This document shows, in pieces, positions 8,206 to 64,000 of a stretch of 64,000 nucleotides of DNA. The stretch is taken from contig NZ_CP084469.1 of assembly GCF_020405205.1 (NCBI RefSeq), positions 3,224,001 to 3,288,000 on the forward strand, given 5' to 3'. The notes below the pieces were generated by a model. It searched no databases, was not told the origin of the DNA, and was given only the letters and a program-made list of their open reading frames with translations. How positions within the stretch are numbered: the first letter of the stretch is position 1; each line of letters begins with the position of its first letter. The stretch comes from Natrinema salinisoli (GTDB taxonomy: Archaea > Halobacteriota > Halobacteria > Halobacteriales > Natrialbaceae). A program made the translations under genes and the position numbers.

Positions 8206-8871
8206 GTGAATATCTCGAGTTGGCAGACCTACCTCGTCACGCAGGCGTCGCTGTCGGGCGAGCAGTCGACAGTGGAGGTCGTCCGCGCGGCCATCGACAG
8301 CGGGATCGACGTCGTACAGCTCCGCGAGAAGGAAACGAGCGCTCGATCGCGGCACGAACTCGGCCTCGAGCTGCGCGAGCTCACGGCCGACGCAGGTGTC
8401 GACCTGATCGTCAACGATCGGGTCGATATCGCGCGGGCGATCGACGCCGACGGCGTCCACGTCGGCCAGTCGGATCTGCCGGTCGCGGTCGCGCGCGACC
8501 TGCTCGGGCCGGACGCGATCGTCGGCTGTTCGACGTCGACGGTCGCGGACGCCCGGGAAGCAGAAGCCGACGGGGCGGACTACCTGGGCGTCGGGGCCGT
8601 CTACGGAACCTCCTCGAAGGACGTCGACGAGGACAAGGACGGGATCGGTCCGGAACGAGTCGCCGCGATCGCGGACGCGGTCTCGATTCCGGTCGTCGGT
8701 ATCGGCGGGATTACGGCTGACAACGCCGGCCCGGTCGTCGAGGCGGGTGCGACTGGCGTCGCCGTGATCAGCGAGATTACGGGGGCCCCGAATCCGCGAG
8801 CGGCGACCGAATCGCTTGCGGCCGCCGTCGAAACGACGAAGGGAATCGGGAACGGAGGAGGAGGAGCATGA
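8206..8871 (+). CDS. thiE: Thiamine-phosphate synthase
   Basis: A 221-residue TIM-barrel enzyme joining HMP-pyrophosphate and thiazole phosphate to give thiamine phosphate. Conserved family segments are visible: VVQLREK near residue 40, LIVNDRVDIA near 70, ADGVHVGQSDLP with the substrate-binding loop, YLGVGAVYGTSSK near 130, and VVGIGGI near 165. It starts with GTG. The stop overlaps the ATG of thiM (ATGA), so the two salvage/synthesis genes form an operon. Confidence 0.95.
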   Translation: MNISSWQTYLVTQASLSGEQSTVEVVRAAIDSGIDVVQLREKETSARSRHELGLELRELTADAGVDLIVNDRVDIARAIDADGVHVGQSDLPVAVARDLLGPDAIVGCSTSTVADAREAEADGADYLGVGAVYGTSSKDVDEDKDGIGPERVAAIADAVSIPVVGIGGITADNAGPVVEAGATGVAVISEITGAPNPRAATESLAAAVETTKGIGNGGGGA

Positions 8872-55453: not shown

Positions 55454-55557
55454 TACCCACCACGGTATCGCATACGACCACATTCTCCTTTCGCAACCGC
55501 TCCCTATAATTTAAATGTCAAAGGGAAGCATCCTGCTATAGGGAGTTCTAATAACCA

Positions 55558-55755
55558 ATGGCAGATACTGATTCGTCTGCGATCTGCCCCGAATGCGACG
55601 GCAGATTACGAAAGAACGGCACCGAAATCGTCTGTGAGGACTGCGGACTCGTCTCGGCCGAAGACGCGATCGATCGCGGCCCCGAATGGCGGTCGTTCGA
55701 GGACGACGATACCGATCCGCGACGGACCGGCGCACCCCTGACCCGCTCGAGACAC
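55558..55755 (+). pseudogene. tfb: Transcription initiation factor B, N-terminal part (split by the integrated element)
   Basis: Residues 1-66 of a TFB. The zinc ribbon is complete (C10-P-E-C13 and C26-E-D-C29), followed by the B-reader/linker segment (GPEWRSFEDDDTDPRRTGAPLTRSRH). Exactly at codon 66 the element begins; the frame then runs on through element sequence without TFB similarity to a stop at 55960-55962. A TATA-like stretch (tataatttaaat, 55505-55516) and a second AT box (55548-55554) lie upstream. If the element is excised the frame continues with the part at 63692. Confidence 0.92.
55721..55755 (+). repeat. attL: left copy of a 35-bp direct repeat
   Basis: Identical 35 bases to 63657-63691; covers tfb codons 55-66 (RRTGAPLTRSRH). 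Flanking bases differ on both sides, so 35 bp is the full repeat. Confidence 0.95.
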
Positions 55756-55820
55756 TCCCTTAATCGGAATCATCGGCCTCAAATGACCGCCACTCGGTCC
55801 GCAATCGATCTGCCAGCATG

Positions 55821-55847
55821 GGGTTGTGAATTGAAGGACTACAACCC
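55821..55847 (+). promoter_or_regulatory. Inverted repeat directly before the integrase start
   Basis: GGGTTGT (55821-55827) and ACAACCC (55841-55847), the latter adjoining the integrase ATG. The half-site ACAACCC occurs again at 63514-63520 near the right end. It may be a recombinase arm site or an operator for integrase. Confidence 0.4.
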
Positions 55848-56873
55848 ATGTCACACGACGAACTGGAAGAACTTGAACCTGAACAGGCACTCGAGATGTA
55901 TATTGAGTCTCAGCGCCACGAACTGCGAGAATCTACCATCAAAAGTAAGCGATCCCGCTTAGGGATGTTCGTCGACCATTGTAGAGAGAACGACATAGCG
56001 TCTCTGACGGATCTTGACGGCATTGATCTGCACGAGTATCGAATTGAACAGGCAGAGGGAATAGCTCGCCGTACGCTCGTCTCTCGGCTTTCTTCACTCC
56101 GTGTTTTCCTCAGATGGGCCGAATCAATTGGAGCTGTTGAGCAAGGATTCCACGAGAAGGTAATCGTTCCCGATGTGGACAGCAGACGTTCCAGTATGAT
56201 CAACTCAGACCGCGCTCAGACGATTTTAGAATACCTGAGACGGTACGAGTATGCCAGTCGGGATCATCTCGTCATACGCTTATTCTGGCGTACTGGGATG
56301 CGTCTCGGAGCGTTACGCGGCCTCGATCTTGATGACTACTTTCCCAGTGGAAACGACGAAACGGATGAGCCATTTCTCCAGCTGCATCACCGCCCCGACA
56401 CAGGCACTCCGTTGAAGAACGGCAAAGCAGGGGAACGGCCAGTTGGGATATCAGATGAAACACGGCTATTGATCGACGACTACCTCGAGAATAACCGAGT
56501 TGATATCACAGACAACAACGGACGGGCATCTTTACTAACGACCAAGCGAGGGAGACCAGGAATAGCAACATTCAGACGCACCGTGTACCGATACACGCGG
56601 CCCTGTGCAGTCGGTGAAGACTGTCCGCATGATCGTACGCCATCGGACTGCGAAGCAACTGAGAACACCGACAAAGCGTCTCTGTGTCCGTCAACGGTAT
56701 CACCGCATGACGTCCGACGTGGTGCGATAACCCACCTTCTCCGAAACGATGTGCCGAAACCGATTGTCTCCGATCGATGCGATGTAAGTCCTGATGTGCT
56801 TGACAAACACTATGATCAACGATCGGACCTCGAGAAAATGGAACAGCGACGGAACTATCTGGATAACCTCTAA
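55848..56873 (+). CDS. Tyrosine recombinase/integrase
   Basis: A 341-residue site-specific recombinase. Residues 10-95 form a SAM-like core-binding domain (LEMYIESQRHELRESTIKSKRSRLGMFVDHC, then RRTLVSRLSSLRVFLRWAE). The catalytic domain has the first arginine in FWRTGMRLGALRGLDLDDY (~155), the H-x-x-R box SPHDVRRGAITHLL (~295) and the tyrosine in LDKHYDQ (~325). An internal Cys-rich stretch (CAVGEDCPHDRTPSDC) lies before box II, common in haloarchaeal integrases. It adjoins attL and reads in the same direction as tfb, so the tfb promoter can drive it. Confidence 0.93.
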   Translation: MSHDELEELEPEQALEMYIESQRHELRESTIKSKRSRLGMFVDHCRENDIASLTDLDGIDLHEYRIEQAEGIARRTLVSRLSSLRVFLRWAESIGAVEQGFHEKVIVPDVDSRRSSMINSDRAQTILEYLRRYEYASRDHLVIRLFWRTGMRLGALRGLDLDDYFPSGNDETDEPFLQLHHRPDTGTPLKNGKAGERPVGISDETRLLIDDYLENNRVDITDNNGRASLLTTKRGRPGIATFRRTVYRYTRPCAVGEDCPHDRTPSDCEATENTDKASLCPSTVSPHDVRRGAITHLLRNDVPKPIVSDRCDVSPDVLDKHYDQRSDLEKMEQRRNYLDNL

Positions 56874-56993: not shown

Positions 56994-57968
56994 CTATTGT
57001 TGACCTTCGTTTGGTATTGTTTCCTGAAATTCTAGCACTTCATCCTCTGTTTGATTCAAGCTCAAACTCTCACCTTCGATTTCCGCCTTCGAGAATACCT
57101 CCTGCAGAGTTATTCGTTCTTCCATACATCGGTTTGCAGACTCTGCCTTGGCTGTGAAAGAACATTCAACGTTCTTATCGTCAACAATTTCTAACTTCAG
57201 CTCGTGACATGGATAGTTGGTGCTTTCTAAGAATGCAGCAAATCCATTGATGCACGCTTTGAGTTCTGCTTTGTAGTCTTCAGGGTTCTTTTCTAATGAT
57301 TTGTCTGTCTGGTATTTCGCTTGAAGGGCGCCAGCCACAGGGTTATATCTGCACCGTTTCAACGAAATGTCAGACGAAGTTTTAATAAACGATCTAAAAT
57401 TATTTACGCTCTCTGAGAGTTGTGGATCAGTTTCTGGTTTGTCTTCAAACTCTTCTTCAAATTGGTGTATTGTTGGCCAAAACCTCCAAAACACCATCCT
57501 AAGTATTCCTGCGATTAACCCAAACAGAAGCAGAACACCAATAAAATCGATCTCTCCTCTATTCTTCAAAATCACATATATGCCGAATACCACGCTAGGA
57601 AGGTACAACAATAATAATACAATTGAAACTATGAGTACGGGCAGACGTGATAAGTTGACTACATCCTCTCTCTTAGCGACCGCTCTGAGATCTTTAGGAT
57701 ATTGGTCTGCTGGCGGTTCTTTCCACACGGCAGCCTGAAGTCTTTGTAGACGAGTTGTCTTATCCAAGGGATTTTCATTAGGTCCCTCCGGGCCGTACAC
57801 AGATTGGTACATACCATGCATCCAGACAGTTGATACAAGAACTGCAACAGCGATTCCCAAATAGTAGCTCTCATTTGTAATATAATACCCATATCCGATG
57901 GCGGTCGGTGGTATATACAAGGGTGTGAATTTGGAAGCTGCTATTAGGTCCGGTCCTGTGCTTGCCAT
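56994..57968 (-). CDS. Membrane protein of the element, unknown function
   Basis: A 324-residue protein with low GC. Four hydrophobic segments lie at about residues 14-30, 36-57 (YLGIAVAVLVSTVWMHGMY), 107-134 (LPVLIVSIVLLLLYLPSVVFG) and 139-162 (IDFIGVLLLFGLIAGILRMVF). Residues 165-324 form a soluble, acidic, cysteine-containing domain with no recognised fold. The architecture (membrane anchor plus cytoplasmic domain) resembles effectors in defence or signalling, but no motif supports that. Base and codon use differ from host genes. Confidence 0.7.
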   Translation of the reverse strand: MASTGPDLIAASKFTPLYIPPTAIGYGYYITNESYYLGIAVAVLVSTVWMHGMYQSVYGPEGPNENPLDKTTRLQRLQAAVWKEPPADQYPKDLRAVAKREDVVNLSRLPVLIVSIVLLLLYLPSVVFGIYVILKNRGEIDFIGVLLLFGLIAGILRMVFWRFWPTIHQFEEEFEDKPETDPQLSESVNNFRSFIKTSSDISLKRCRYNPVAGALQAKYQTDKSLEKNPEDYKAELKACINGFAAFLESTNYPCHELKLEIVDDKNVECSFTAKAESANRCMEERITLQEVFSKAEIEGESLSLNQTEDEVLEFQETIPNEGQQ

Positions 57969-58429: not shown

Positions 58430-59260
58430 ATGAATATTACGGGGTTCGACCTGATGGTAATGGTCTGTATGGCAATTGCGGTGGTCAGCATGAGCTACAC
58501 GTTTCCGGCGTTGGGACTCACTGATTCATCGGTCGACGAAAACGACATCCCGGAGTTCGAGATCGAGTCGGACCGGTTTGACTTTGCGGGCCAGTTTCCA
58601 GAGAATCCGGGAACGCCGTCCCAAGGCAGCTTAGAGGTATCTGACGGGGATGGGGACCAAGTGACGTTACACGACAATGGGACGCATAGCGTCCAACTGA
58701 GTGCCGTCAATAACACCAGCAGTCCGAACCTGACGCCGCAGGTGTATCTGGGCAAGTACAACGATTCGTCGTCGAGTCCACAACTTGAGAGTGTTACGCT
58801 GGAGTATCTCGGAGACGAGGCAATCCTCGAGGCATTCGAGTACGAGCTGGAGCTCACCTGGACGTCGACGAGAAATGCAGACCAAAGCGACGAGACGGCA
58901 GTCGTTGACTATGAGATCGTTAGTCAGCCGGGAGACGAGGGCTGGCTTACGCGGGTGCCGATCATCGGCGGGATCGTCAGTAGTGGCGAGGCGATCGCCA
59001 ACGTTGTAGGCTGGATCGGATCAATCATTTGGTGGGGAGTGGCGGTCGCGTTCGAGACGATCGTGAACGTTGTGGGGCTGGTGTTCGACGTGGCGACCTA
59101 CTTCATCGGTACGTTCACCTGGATGATCACAGCGTACACTGGGATCGTCTCTGGGGCCGGTTCGTGGGCTGCGGTGTTCGTCGCGATCCCGGGCATACTC
59201 TTGTTTGCTGAACTGGCCAAGGTGGTGATGGTCCTCGTCTCACTGCTACCGACGACCTGA
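58430..59260 (+). CDS. Membrane-anchored protein with external domain (provirus-like)
   Basis: A 276-residue protein. The N-terminal helix (FDLMVMVCMAIAVVSMSYTF) anchors an acidic external domain of about 150 residues (DIPEFEIESDRFDFAGQFPENPGTPSQGSLEV and a beta-rich part with N-glycosylation sites NGTH, NNTS, NDSS). The C-terminal 80 residues are hydrophobic with three or four helices (SIIWWGVAVAFETIVNVVGLVF, AVFVAIPGILLFAELAKVVMVLV). Related sequences are familiar from haloarchaeal proviruses and plasmids, from memory only. A virion membrane or surface protein is possible. Confidence 0.75.
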   Translation: MNITGFDLMVMVCMAIAVVSMSYTFPALGLTDSSVDENDIPEFEIESDRFDFAGQFPENPGTPSQGSLEVSDGDGDQVTLHDNGTHSVQLSAVNNTSSPNLTPQVYLGKYNDSSSSPQLESVTLEYLGDEAILEAFEYELELTWTSTRNADQSDETAVVDYEIVSQPGDEGWLTRVPIIGGIVSSGEAIANVVGWIGSIIWWGVAVAFETIVNVVGLVFDVATYFIGTFTWMITAYTGIVSGAGSWAAVFVAIPGILLFAELAKVVMVLVSLLPTT

Positions 59261-60303: not shown

Positions 60304-60483
60304 ATGAAAGGAAGCCAACTTACCGTCCGACTCAGCGACGAATTGATGGAAGAGATCGAGCAGGAATGCAATGACTATCAGTACGAGATTCCGAAGTCAG
60401 AAGTAGTACGAGCTGCCCTCGAGACGTACTTTTCGTATGATGGCCATTGTCCCCACTGTGGCAATCAGATCGTTGAGGATTAA
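60304..60483 (+). CDS. Ribbon-helix-helix regulator with C-terminal zinc knuckle
   Basis: A 59-residue protein. The strand SQLTVRLSDELMEEIE and helix pair KSEVVRAALETYF are the CopG/Arc-type RHH fold; the tail YDGHCPHCGNQIVED adds a C-x-x-C knuckle. It is shorter than most host RHH regulators and likely controls element genes. A TATA-like atttatcg lies about 35 nt upstream. Confidence 0.75.
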   Translation: MKGSQLTVRLSDELMEEIEQECNDYQYEIPKSEVVRAALETYFSYDGHCPHCGNQIVED

Positions 60484-60896: not shown

Positions 60897-61133
60897 CTAT
60901 GATTCCTCGAGAACGCTTTCATCAACGATCTCGTAAACCCCATTCCCGATATTCCGAACAATATTATGCTCTCGGAGCCGTTTTAGCCGATTCGAGACGT
61001 ACTGTCGTGTATATCCAAGATCATCTGCTATGTTGCTGGGAACATTTCTCCCCTCCTCTAACTTCTGAAGGATCCTCTCATCAGCCTCATTAAACTCGAT
61101 ATCAGCCATTAGTGGCTGTTGTTGGGGTGCCAT
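60897..61133 (-). CDS. Winged-helix regulator of the element
   Basis: A 78-residue protein: ADERILQKLEEGRNVPSNIADDLGYTRQYVSNRLKRLREHNIVRNIGNGVYEI is a compact winged helix of the haloarchaeal mobile-element type. ATG 61133 lies about 27 nt after a minus-strand TATA-like box (aaactatac, at 61157-61165), favouring it over ATG 61109. It likely represses the adjacent divergent genes. Confidence 0.85.
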   Translation of the reverse strand: MAPQQQPLMADIEFNEADERILQKLEEGRNVPSNIADDLGYTRQYVSNRLKRLREHNIVRNIGNGVYEIVDESVLEES

Positions 61134-61314
61134 TATCAGTATTCATCGTTCTATCTCCGTATAGTTTACTCCTGTGTGTTTACTCAGAGTAAGATATATG
61201 TAGATGGCCACTAACGTATCTGATAGCACACGCTCGCCGTCTCATCTCTCGGTATGAATGAGGCGGCCGGTGCTACAACACCGACCGCGTGTGCCGCAGT
61301 GGATAGCGACAACC

Positions 61315-61722
61315 ATGTCAACCAACGAATCCCACGGTAATGAAACCGATGGATCGCCTAGAAACCAACCAGCACGGACTACAGTGCCTGTTCCGGTAAC
61401 AGTTCCCGAATCGGTCGAACACGCAGCTCGTGAACGCCACGAGAGAGCCAAGCAGCAAGAACACACTTTCGATTTGTCCGACGAACGTCTCCAGCTCGAG
61501 GACTACTTGAGGGACTACGTCGCGATCGAACCGCAGTTCCTGACCCGTGACGTTACGCATACTGAGTACGGCGAGCCTTTGACCCGCGCTCTGTACACGT
61601 GCGTCACCGAAGACCAATACGAGGCTATTGTCGACGCTGTGAACGTCTCTGAGGATGCGGCCAATGTTCAGGAATTCGTGCGTAACGCAGTGTCGAAATC
61701 TCTCTCAGAGAGCGGTCTATAG
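61315..61722 (+). CDS. Element protein, unknown function
   Basis: A 135-residue protein. The first 45 residues are polar and Thr/Pro-rich, then RERHERAKQQEHTFDLSDERLQLEDYLRDYVAI and a C-terminal helix pair (EDAANVQEFVRNAVSKSL). Short acidic proteins of this design often accompany haloarchaeal integrases. No motif recognised. Start at ATG 61315; upstream in-frame sequence is not protein-like. Confidence 0.6.
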   Translation: MSTNESHGNETDGSPRNQPARTTVPVPVTVPESVEHAARERHERAKQQEHTFDLSDERLQLEDYLRDYVAIEPQFLTRDVTHTEYGEPLTRALYTCVTEDQYEAIVDAVNVSEDAANVQEFVRNAVSKSLSESGL

Positions 61723-61734
61723 GCTCAGAAGGCT

Positions 61735-61983
61735 ATGCCAGACACAATCTGCGACCGTTGCGGGACAGAGTACGACACGGACCGCGAGACGTCACAATCG
61801 TCGTTCGACTCGATGCGCTGTCCGTCGTGTGGGAAACAGAACAGCCCACCAGTAGCTGAGACGGACGGCGGGACTCTTGAGGTTCCGGCCAACGAAAGCG
61901 TCCCTGAGACGATCAGAGACACGCTGACAACGATCGAAGGCGACGGGAAAGAGTTACACGTTCATTTCCACTTCCACGGTTGA
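61735..61983 (+). CDS. Zinc-ribbon protein with histidine-rich tail
   Basis: An 82-residue protein: CDRCGTEYD and CPSCGKQN form a zinc ribbon, followed by a linker and the unusual C-terminus HVHFHFHG. It follows the previous gene by 12 bases, so they are probably co-transcribed. The tail may bind a second metal. Confidence 0.75.
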   Translation: MPDTICDRCGTEYDTDRETSQSSFDSMRCPSCGKQNSPPVAETDGGTLEVPANESVPETIRDTLTTIEGDGKELHVHFHFHG

Positions 61984-62351: not shown

Positions 62352-63350
62352 TCAACGATACATTTGTCGCTCGTAGGCAGGCGGAATTACTGGAATTCCT
62401 TCTCGTAAGTACTCTTCACTAATCAAGTCGATAGGTACGCGATTGGCTTCCCTACGAACTACCTCAAGTGTGGGTTGATCGTCATCCGGAAGATCCGATG
62501 GCGATAAATCGAGCCCCTCTAATTGGATCTCATGTTCCTCGTTCTTTCTGTCCTCATACACGAGCATGATTCCAACTCGAAATCGGGATACGTCACTATT
62601 GTTGACCAACTGTGATATACAATACGAGAAAGGGAACGTAGCATCAGGAAGACTGGCTGGATGGCTCAATCCAGCAACAGTCTCATATTCGACTTCAAGT
62701 TTTTCTCCCCGGAGGGTTCCGCCGGGTTTCGCGGTCCAAGTCTCATCTCGTCCAACCCGTGATAAAGGCACGTCTCTCCCGAAAACGATTCTCCCCGGCC
62801 CCTGGATATCGGTTACAAACCTCAAACGAAGATTAGTAGCGATTGCTGTGCTTGGGTTAGAGAGCGTGAGATTGACAACGTCACCTGGGAAAGGGTGGTC
62901 ATCAGGCATTAGAAACGGCGTGTTTGACGGAGGATTGTCTCCGGTCGTGAATTTTAGCACTTCAACGACTGGTTCGAATTCAGCGCCCATAATCCCCACC
63001 TGAGTTTGCTGCAATGATTGGATGTCATTTTGTAGGCTGATTTGGTCGTTCTCTAACTTGGCCTGGAGATGTTCAGATCGCGCGATAGAGAGATAAACCC
63101 ACAAGAGACCAAGCGTGAGGAGGATATTTGTTAGGCCGCTAAACAAGCTGACACGAGAACTCTGAAGGGTAGTCAAATCTCCAGAGACCACCCAAGCAGC
63201 AAAAATCAAAGGAATCAGCACGACGACCCCTACTACTCCCCGTATGATCATTCCTCCTTCAATAATGTACTCAATAGGTCGATCCAGACCAGACATTAAA
63301 TCATACAACACTCCCACCTTATCCCAAAGCCATGAAAGTCGCTCTCCCAT
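62352..63350 (-). CDS. Membrane protein of the element with C-terminal soluble domain
   Basis: A 332-residue protein. Two hydrophobic segments (GVVGVVVLIPLIFAAWVVSG at ~38-57 and FSGLTNILLTLGLLWVYLSIA at ~70-90), a coiled-coil stretch (EHLQAKLENDQISLQNDIQSLQQTQ), then about 215 residues of beta-rich soluble domain (VVNLTLSNPSTAIATNLRLRFV and DVSRFRVGIMLVYEDR). Convergent with the zinc ribbon. Low GC like 56994-57968. Function unknown. Confidence 0.7.
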   Translation of the reverse strand: MGERLSWLWDKVGVLYDLMSGLDRPIEYIIEGGMIIRGVVGVVVLIPLIFAAWVVSGDLTTLQSSRVSLFSGLTNILLTLGLLWVYLSIARSEHLQAKLENDQISLQNDIQSLQQTQVGIMGAEFEPVVEVLKFTTGDNPPSNTPFLMPDDHPFPGDVVNLTLSNPSTAIATNLRLRFVTDIQGPGRIVFGRDVPLSRVGRDETWTAKPGGTLRGEKLEVEYETVAGLSHPASLPDATFPFSYCISQLVNNSDVSRFRVGIMLVYEDRKNEEHEIQLEGLDLSPSDLPDDDQPTLEVVRREANRVPIDLISEEYLREGIPVIPPAYERQMYR

Positions 63351-63656
63351 GCAGCCTACAACTCAGTAAATTGCCTTGAAACTACTTCAGCGATGGATCT
63401 CTAAGGGTTTGTAGATTCCAATATGAAGGGTCAACACAGAAACTCCTTTTCGGACCTGTGGTGCTATACACGATCCTAGAGAGTTAAGAGCGGTATCTGC
63501 TTTGTCGATAACTACAACCCTATGACGGCAGTGGGGGCCGTTCATCTCTCGAACGAATGGAGAGTAAATCGGTCGACGTCGAGAACGGCAGTATGGTGAA
63601 TTCGTCGGAAAGAGGCGGAACCGTAGCCGATCTCCGTCGAGAGTCTGCGGTCATAA
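63351..63656. other. Right end of the element
   Basis: Upstream region of the 62352-63350 gene. ACAACCC (63514-63520) repeats the integrase-proximal half-site. From the ATG at 63557 an open frame runs without stop into attR and continues in the TFB frame. Confidence 0.6.
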
Positions 63657-63691
63657 GACGGACCGGCGCACCCCTGACCCGCTCGAGACAC
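63657..63691 (+). repeat. attR: right copy of the 35-bp direct repeat
   Basis: Same 35 bases as 55721-55755 and the same phase relative to the tfb frame, so one copy can replace the other after excision. Confidence 0.95.
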
Positions 63692-64000
63692 GACCGGGGG
63701 CTATCGACGGAGATCGGGTACGGTTCCGACTCCGGGTACAGCGCTCGGCTCACCGGCCGAAAGCGCCGACAGATCGCCCGACTCCGCCGGGAACACAACC
63801 GCGCCCGAATCTCCTCGAAAGCCGACCGGAATCAGGTCTACGGGTTCACCGAGATCAAACGGGTTACCGCCCTGCTCTCACTGTCCGACTCCGTTCGAGA
63901 GCAGGCCTGCGCACTCTTTGAATCCGCCCAATCTGAAGGGCTCTTTCAGGGTCGATCGCTCGAGGGGTTCGCAGCCGCCGCGATCTATGCGACCTGTCGG
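63657..64000 (+). pseudogene. tfb: Transcription initiation factor B, core part (split; runs past window end)
   Basis: After the repeat the frame reads DRGLSTEIGYGSDSGYSARLTGRKRRQIARLRREHNRARISSKADRNQVYGFTEIKRVTALLSLSDSVREQACALFESAQSEGLFQGRSLEGFAAAAIYATCR, i.e. the end of the B-linker and the first cyclin-like repeat of TFB (residues 67-169 of the joined protein). The second repeat lies beyond the window. Joined to 55558-55755 it is continuous and in frame. In the integrated state the core can be translated only from an element-borne start such as ATG 63557. Confidence 0.93.

Follow-up and report, generated by a model that had tools for sequence, protein, structure and literature searches.

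In the bacterial integrative and conjugative elements ICEKp1, ICEclc and ICEEc1, the integrase gene is transcribed from the promoter of the host tRNA gene when the element is integrated and from a promoter at the 3′ end of the element when it is excised, and stem-loops attenuate its expression (PMC13023037). The integrase promoter that acts in the circular state of such elements is known as Pcirc (PMC2892462). Such swapping of promoters when an ICE integrates was demonstrated in bacteria in 2026 (PMC13023037), and we found no archaeal case of it in the literature examined.

The locus described here lies in a window of 64,000 nucleotides, which is part of a 4.19 Mb contig of Natrinema salinisoli; the genus also includes Natrinema pellirubrum (relative G015). 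An element of 7,936 bp (~7.94 kb) is located inside a tfb gene of this archaeon, and its nearest known parallel is the switching of integrase promoters between the integrated and excised states in ICEKp1 and ICEclc. As in ICEKp1, ICEclc and ICEEc1, the integrase gene adjoins the host gene just inside the junction, on the same strand and with the intact host promoter upstream. Its 5′ flank has little promoter signal, as judged here from the sequence alone, stem-loops are present in the leader, and after circularisation the opposite end of the element would come to lie upstream. Unlike those elements, this one resides in an archaeal host and breaks a protein gene, whereas the tRNA gene is left intact there, and its right-end promoter is only a candidate.

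Two other described arrangements resemble the locus in part. The recombinase-bearing elements skin in sigK and SpyCI in mutL also split a functional gene, and their excision restores the gene in a regulated manner with a demonstrated effect (PMC5025042, PMC3430984). In contrast to them, occupancy of the present site is rare and the restoration of the gene is predicted solely from the DNA. In KplE1, the start of intS is likewise adjacent to attL; a promoter has been mapped within attL there (PMC2951348), whereas none is recognisable by consensus in the attL studied here.

The split tfb gene and its integrase

The element is bounded by perfect 35-bp direct repeats, the cores of attL and attR (Table 1), and the insertion point corresponds to codons 54–66 of tfb. 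When the flanks were rejoined in silico, an uninterrupted TFB of 297 aa with a zinc ribbon and a core was obtained. The same gene, with an MCM gene beside it, is unbroken in relatives, among them further genomes of the genus and the sister species G019, whose DNA is 94% identical over 2.3 kb. Excision is predicted to restore tfb on the basis of this rejoined frame, contiguous in relatives.

The preliminary description of the window had noted that the interrupted tfb frame runs on to 55962 and overlaps the integrase start. The ORFs bear this out: the truncated frame (55558–55962, 134 aa) overlaps that of the integrase (55848–56873) on the same strand, in a different frame. The 3′ half of tfb is open as well and takes its ATG from the element; the predicted product of 276 aa would be a TFB without the zinc ribbon. 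Such an in-frame 3′ fusion was rejected as a conserved feature, as at the occupied tfb site of another genome, G248, the corresponding frame lacks a start codon ahead of the core. Codon differences from G019 are mostly synonymous, with 32 against 6 nonsynonymous ones in the 3′ half and 2 against 0 in the 5′ half. The undecayed state of the split gene fits a recent as well as a reversible insertion and does not discriminate between the two. Many further TFB genes are present in the same genome. On contig C2 (L195:1772–2041), the N-terminal part of a TFB breaks off immediately ahead of the RRTGAPL codons, near the att position; it was dismissed as a second split TFB, being a fragment only, with no integrase nearby.

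The integrase shares 43–46% identity with its counterparts in SNJ2, HHPV4 and HRPV9 and is therefore of the IntSNJ2 type. According to the archaeal integrase review (PMC8371274), this type is defined by the Phage_int_SAM and Phage_integrase domains and by at least 30% identity to the family, and the present protein has both. Its named phage and plasmid matches are all haloarchaeal, in line with the restriction of the type to haloarchaea and their elements. The likeness to betapleolipovirus SNJ2 extends to the integrase family and its domains. However, int of SNJ2 is the last gene of its cluster, behind two recombination accessory genes, whereas here no accessory ORF precedes int, which is the first gene after attL. 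The same review describes the accessory orf2/orf3 operon as optional, many integrases of this type being without it (PMC8371274). Unlike SNJ2 and the tRNA-Ala-linked homologues, the element targets tfb and the start of its integrase gene faces att; in 10 tRNA-Ala-linked homologues it is the gene end that faces the tRNA.

Table 1. Positions of the split tfb gene, the att sites and the element genes in the window.
Feature	Position	Strand	Evidence
tfb promoter, CCCTATAATTTAAAT, TATA box of the interrupted gene	55502–55516	+	PWM 7.69, coding-null P 0.012
tfb 5′ half, zinc ribbon, codons 1–66, continuing as a 134-aa frame	55558–55962	+	PF08271 E 8e-12; ORF
tfb 5′ flank pairing with left inner arm	55668–55716	+	local alignment
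attL core, 35-bp direct repeat	55721–55755	+	repeat comparison
Integrase leader	55756–55847	+	highest promoter score 2.61 at null P 0.49; T-runs of 4 or more absent
Left inner arm, inverted copy of tfb 5′ flank	55763–55810	-	~82%; 88% to G007 orthologue
Inverted repeat GGGTTGT/ACAACCC abutting the integrase ATG	55821–55847	+	
Tyrosine integrase, IntSNJ2 type, 341 aa	55848–56873	+	PF00589 and PF02899
Element ORF, no family match	56994–57968	-	
Homologue of His1 ORF26 and halovirus BLv25 ORF7	58430–59260	+	39–40% over full length
Ribbon-helix-helix (CopG-like) small protein	60304–60483	+	PF01402 E 3e-5
Winged-helix regulator candidate	60897–61133	-	HTH families E 3e-6 to 1e-4
Element ORF, no family match	61258–61722	+	
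Small zinc-ribbon-like protein	61735–61983	+	weak matches under cut-off
Element ORF, no family match	62352–63350	-	
Candidate right-end promoter, would read over attP into int in the circle	63439–63452	+	score 6.63
tfb 3′ half, in-frame with element-derived start, 276 aa	63557–64000, end ~64387 beyond the window	+	ORF
Right inner arm, inverted copy of tfb 3′ flank 63692–63732	63612–63652	-	85%, 41 nt
attR core, 35-bp direct repeat	63657–63691	+	repeat comparison

Transcription of the integrase gene

Promoters were scored with a simple BRE/TATA matrix trained on only 114 upstream regions taken from 335 kb of this genome, in which an AT peak was seen at −32 to −26, as expected. Upstream of tfb, CCCTATAATTTAAA at 55502 reached a score of 7.69, a level attained by 1.2% of coding 92-mers. 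A TATA-like hexamer lies 42–50 bases before the tfb ATG in 36 of 40 orthologues (in shuffles, the mean was 2.7 and the maximum 8). Since this hexamer is kept, we consider the tfb promoter to be real and intact.

As previously described, the integrase lies on the tfb strand and exactly 92 bases (55756–55847) separate its ATG from attL. The preliminary description had proposed that the tfb promoter transcribes the integrase in the integrated state, and had named a strong promoter within these 92 bases as evidence to the contrary. We searched for one, and none was recognisable by the BRE/TATA matrix; the best score, 2.61, is about the median of coding sequence. Neither a T-run of four nor a terminator was found on the + strand between the tfb ATG and the integrase. 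With no recognisable promoter in the stretch from attL to the ATG, read-through from tfb is most likely the source of the integrase mRNA when the element is integrated. The proposal gains from the intact and conserved tfb promoter, the lack of a terminator-like T-run and of a recognisable leader promoter, and a diverged sister element that has the same layout; it is weakened by homologues most of which have no recognisable promoter just upstream either and by two elements at the same site with a reversed integrase.

A significant promoter site within the 120 bp upstream was found for only 5 of 27 homologous integrases, although the starts of these genes were set by homology and many of them may sit within operons, as in SNJ2. 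Because most homologues have no adjacent consensus promoter, a missing one is weak evidence. The integrase may then have a weak or unconventional promoter of its own in the leader or the attL core, possibly autorepressed as in KplE1, with little contribution from the tfb promoter. The overlap of attL with an integrase promoter under negative autoregulation is reported to be widespread in prophages (PMC2951348), most IntSNJ2 homologues must be expressed in spite of having no consensus promoter, and an inverted repeat, at which the integrase could bind together with the arms, abuts the ATG. Nevertheless, we regard such a promoter as unlikely, given that the best leader site scores about the coding median and that the inverted repeat is missing in G248. 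A borderline promoter site in the integrase leader of G248, scoring 5.0 at position 8384, speaks against transcription from tfb.

We therefore lean, with slightly better than even confidence, towards a site-specific element in tfb whose integrase gene, just inside attL and without a recognisable promoter, would be transcribed from the tfb promoter, the circle relying on the right end. According to this scheme, a small provirus-like element with an IntSNJ2-type recombinase has inserted site-specifically into tfb, and the intact tfb promoter would read through attL into int. Excision would rejoin tfb and sever its promoter from int. In the circle, int would lie behind the right end of the element, which would have to provide a promoter, and stem-loops at the junction could damp int expression. 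The right-end candidate at 63439 is weak, for its coding-null P is 0.03 but its shuffle P is 0.54, and no right-end candidate exceeded the shuffles.

Since excision removes int from the tfb promoter, tfb-driven expression of the integrase would be self-limiting by geometry; the activation of tfb may cause excision. The arrangement appears to serve the element, and a benefit for the host is not indicated. It is quite improbable that excision depends on the demand of the cell for that particular TFB, with inverted repeats present only at the junctions reporting and damping the integrated state. If promoter swapping does operate at this locus, it would be tied to a gene for a basal transcription factor, and how often a mobile element excises would follow from the demand for one TFB.

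Junction structure and the inverted repeat at the integrase start

At both junctions (63612–63732 and 55668–55810), the inner arms of the element copy the tfb flanks in reverse complement, so that attL and attR form long inverted repeats, while the core itself stays forward. This mirroring had not been foreseen. In the circle, the arms would lie as a reversed tfb fragment around a forward core. The right arm of G248 is likewise mirrored, with 86% identity over 29 nt, and reaches into a decayed inverted core. Mirrored arms were rejected as a general trait of the IntSNJ2 type because none were found at the 10 tRNA-Ala-linked homologues. A search of 392 genomes for the pattern of a mirrored attR arm and core returned only this element and one seemingly unrelated match, and the same pattern gave three matches in viral contigs. 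The mirrored arms may serve as integrase sites, may be left over from an earlier insertion at this site in reverse orientation, or may have a regulatory role; as a feature of attP, these tfb-derived arms are open to direct testing.

RNA of both junctions folded better than shuffled sequences, with z −4.05 for attL and −6.94 for attR. Meanwhile, the fold of the attB RNA was as stable as that of attL, so stability alone is no block, and an attL hairpin acting as an attL-specific block was discarded. This comparison bears on another explanation of the locus, namely that the integrase is essentially silent when integrated, with the polarity of the truncated tfb and the junction structure blocking read-through, and that the insertion is a plain recent disruption without any switching. 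We consider it somewhat unlikely. The folding of attL agrees with it, as do the many other TFB genes of the genome and the occupation of just 3 of 107 orthologues by different elements, but attB is equally stable, and the integrase ORF is intact, with conserved motifs common to the G248 integrase.

The preliminary description had also pointed to the inverted repeat before the integrase ATG as a candidate control site. Its arms lie at 55821–55827 (GGGTTGT) and 55841–55847 (ACAACCC), the second touching the ATG. Perfect 7-bp inverted repeats occur within 80 nt upstream of 11 of the 114 genes, and none of the 114 has one abutting the start codon. The repeat is thus present and unusually placed, but its role as a control site is put in doubt by its absence from the sister element in G248. 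Repeats of the GGGTTGT/ACAACCC motif around attP did not exceed dinucleotide shuffles (P 0.15–0.2), and repeated ACTACAACCC was rejected as integrase arm sites for the same reason. The inverted repeat could be a translation-damping hairpin, a site for the integrase or a regulator, or a product of chance.

Occupants of the tfb site and the genes of the element

We surveyed 125 genomes of the family, 107 of which have this tfb orthologue at the threshold used. The gene is intact in 104 of the 107; the three with a frame cut short at the att site are this genome, G018 and G248. The element of G248, which belongs to another genus, is 3.2 kb long and has 32-bp core repeats; its integrase, which begins 60 bp past attL on the same strand as tfb, is 52% identical to the present one. 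The two integrases form a supported clade (98/93). In G018, of the same genus as N. salinisoli, a 2.8-kb element has its integrase on the opposite strand near attR, and its junctions share only CGCCGCT. In G169, from another family, a gap of ~8 kb separates the tfb halves, the integrase is again opposite and near attR, and the short junction core is CGCCGCT once more. This common 7-bp sequence fits a tyrosine-recombinase overlap region, in which case the crossover would fall within the A-P-L codons.

The same tfb codons are thus targeted by at least four elements (the present one and those at L109, L133 (G248) and L194) in two families; two of them carry the integrase on the same strand as tfb and two on the opposite one. 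The two same-site elements with a reversed integrase indicate that the site is a recurrent integration target rather than a host switch under conservation. Only one integrase clade, of which two members are known, has the promoter-borrowing layout; other occupants of the site do not share it. Irrespective of any switch, tfb is a recurrent haloarchaeal integration site, used by four elements in two families and two orientations; the available portion of the archaeal integrase review (PMC8371274) does not mention it. The cores of this element and of that in G248 match the tfb of their own hosts perfectly over 32–35 bp, although tfb orthologues differ at 2–12 of 36 positions, the sister species at 3.

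These data also bear on a domesticated, reversible switch resembling that of skin in sigK, in which tfb induction would drive excision and restore the TFB. The split gene encodes a transcription initiation factor and can be rejoined, and both tfb halves are open in every occupied genome examined. Against this stand the patchy occupancy, the finding that other occupants of the site are diverged or reversed and the lack of an insertion conserved within the genus, and we consider such a switch highly improbable. The 107 orthologues do not show the lineage retaining the insertion in a regulated form, as with skin and SpyCI; the three occupied ones carry different elements. As far as this occupancy shows, there is no selected host switch.

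No close DNA relatives of the whole element were found in the 392 genomes, and none in viral contigs; nor were relatives of the His1-like gene (58430–59260) found in the genomes of the family. Between 59260 and 61250, plausible genes are sparse except for the ribbon-helix-helix protein and the winged-helix regulator candidate. Apart from the integrase, the His1-like gene is the sole clear halovirus gene of the element, and its similarity to His1 ORF26 and BLv25 ORF7 suggests a spindle-virus-related provirus or a relic of one.
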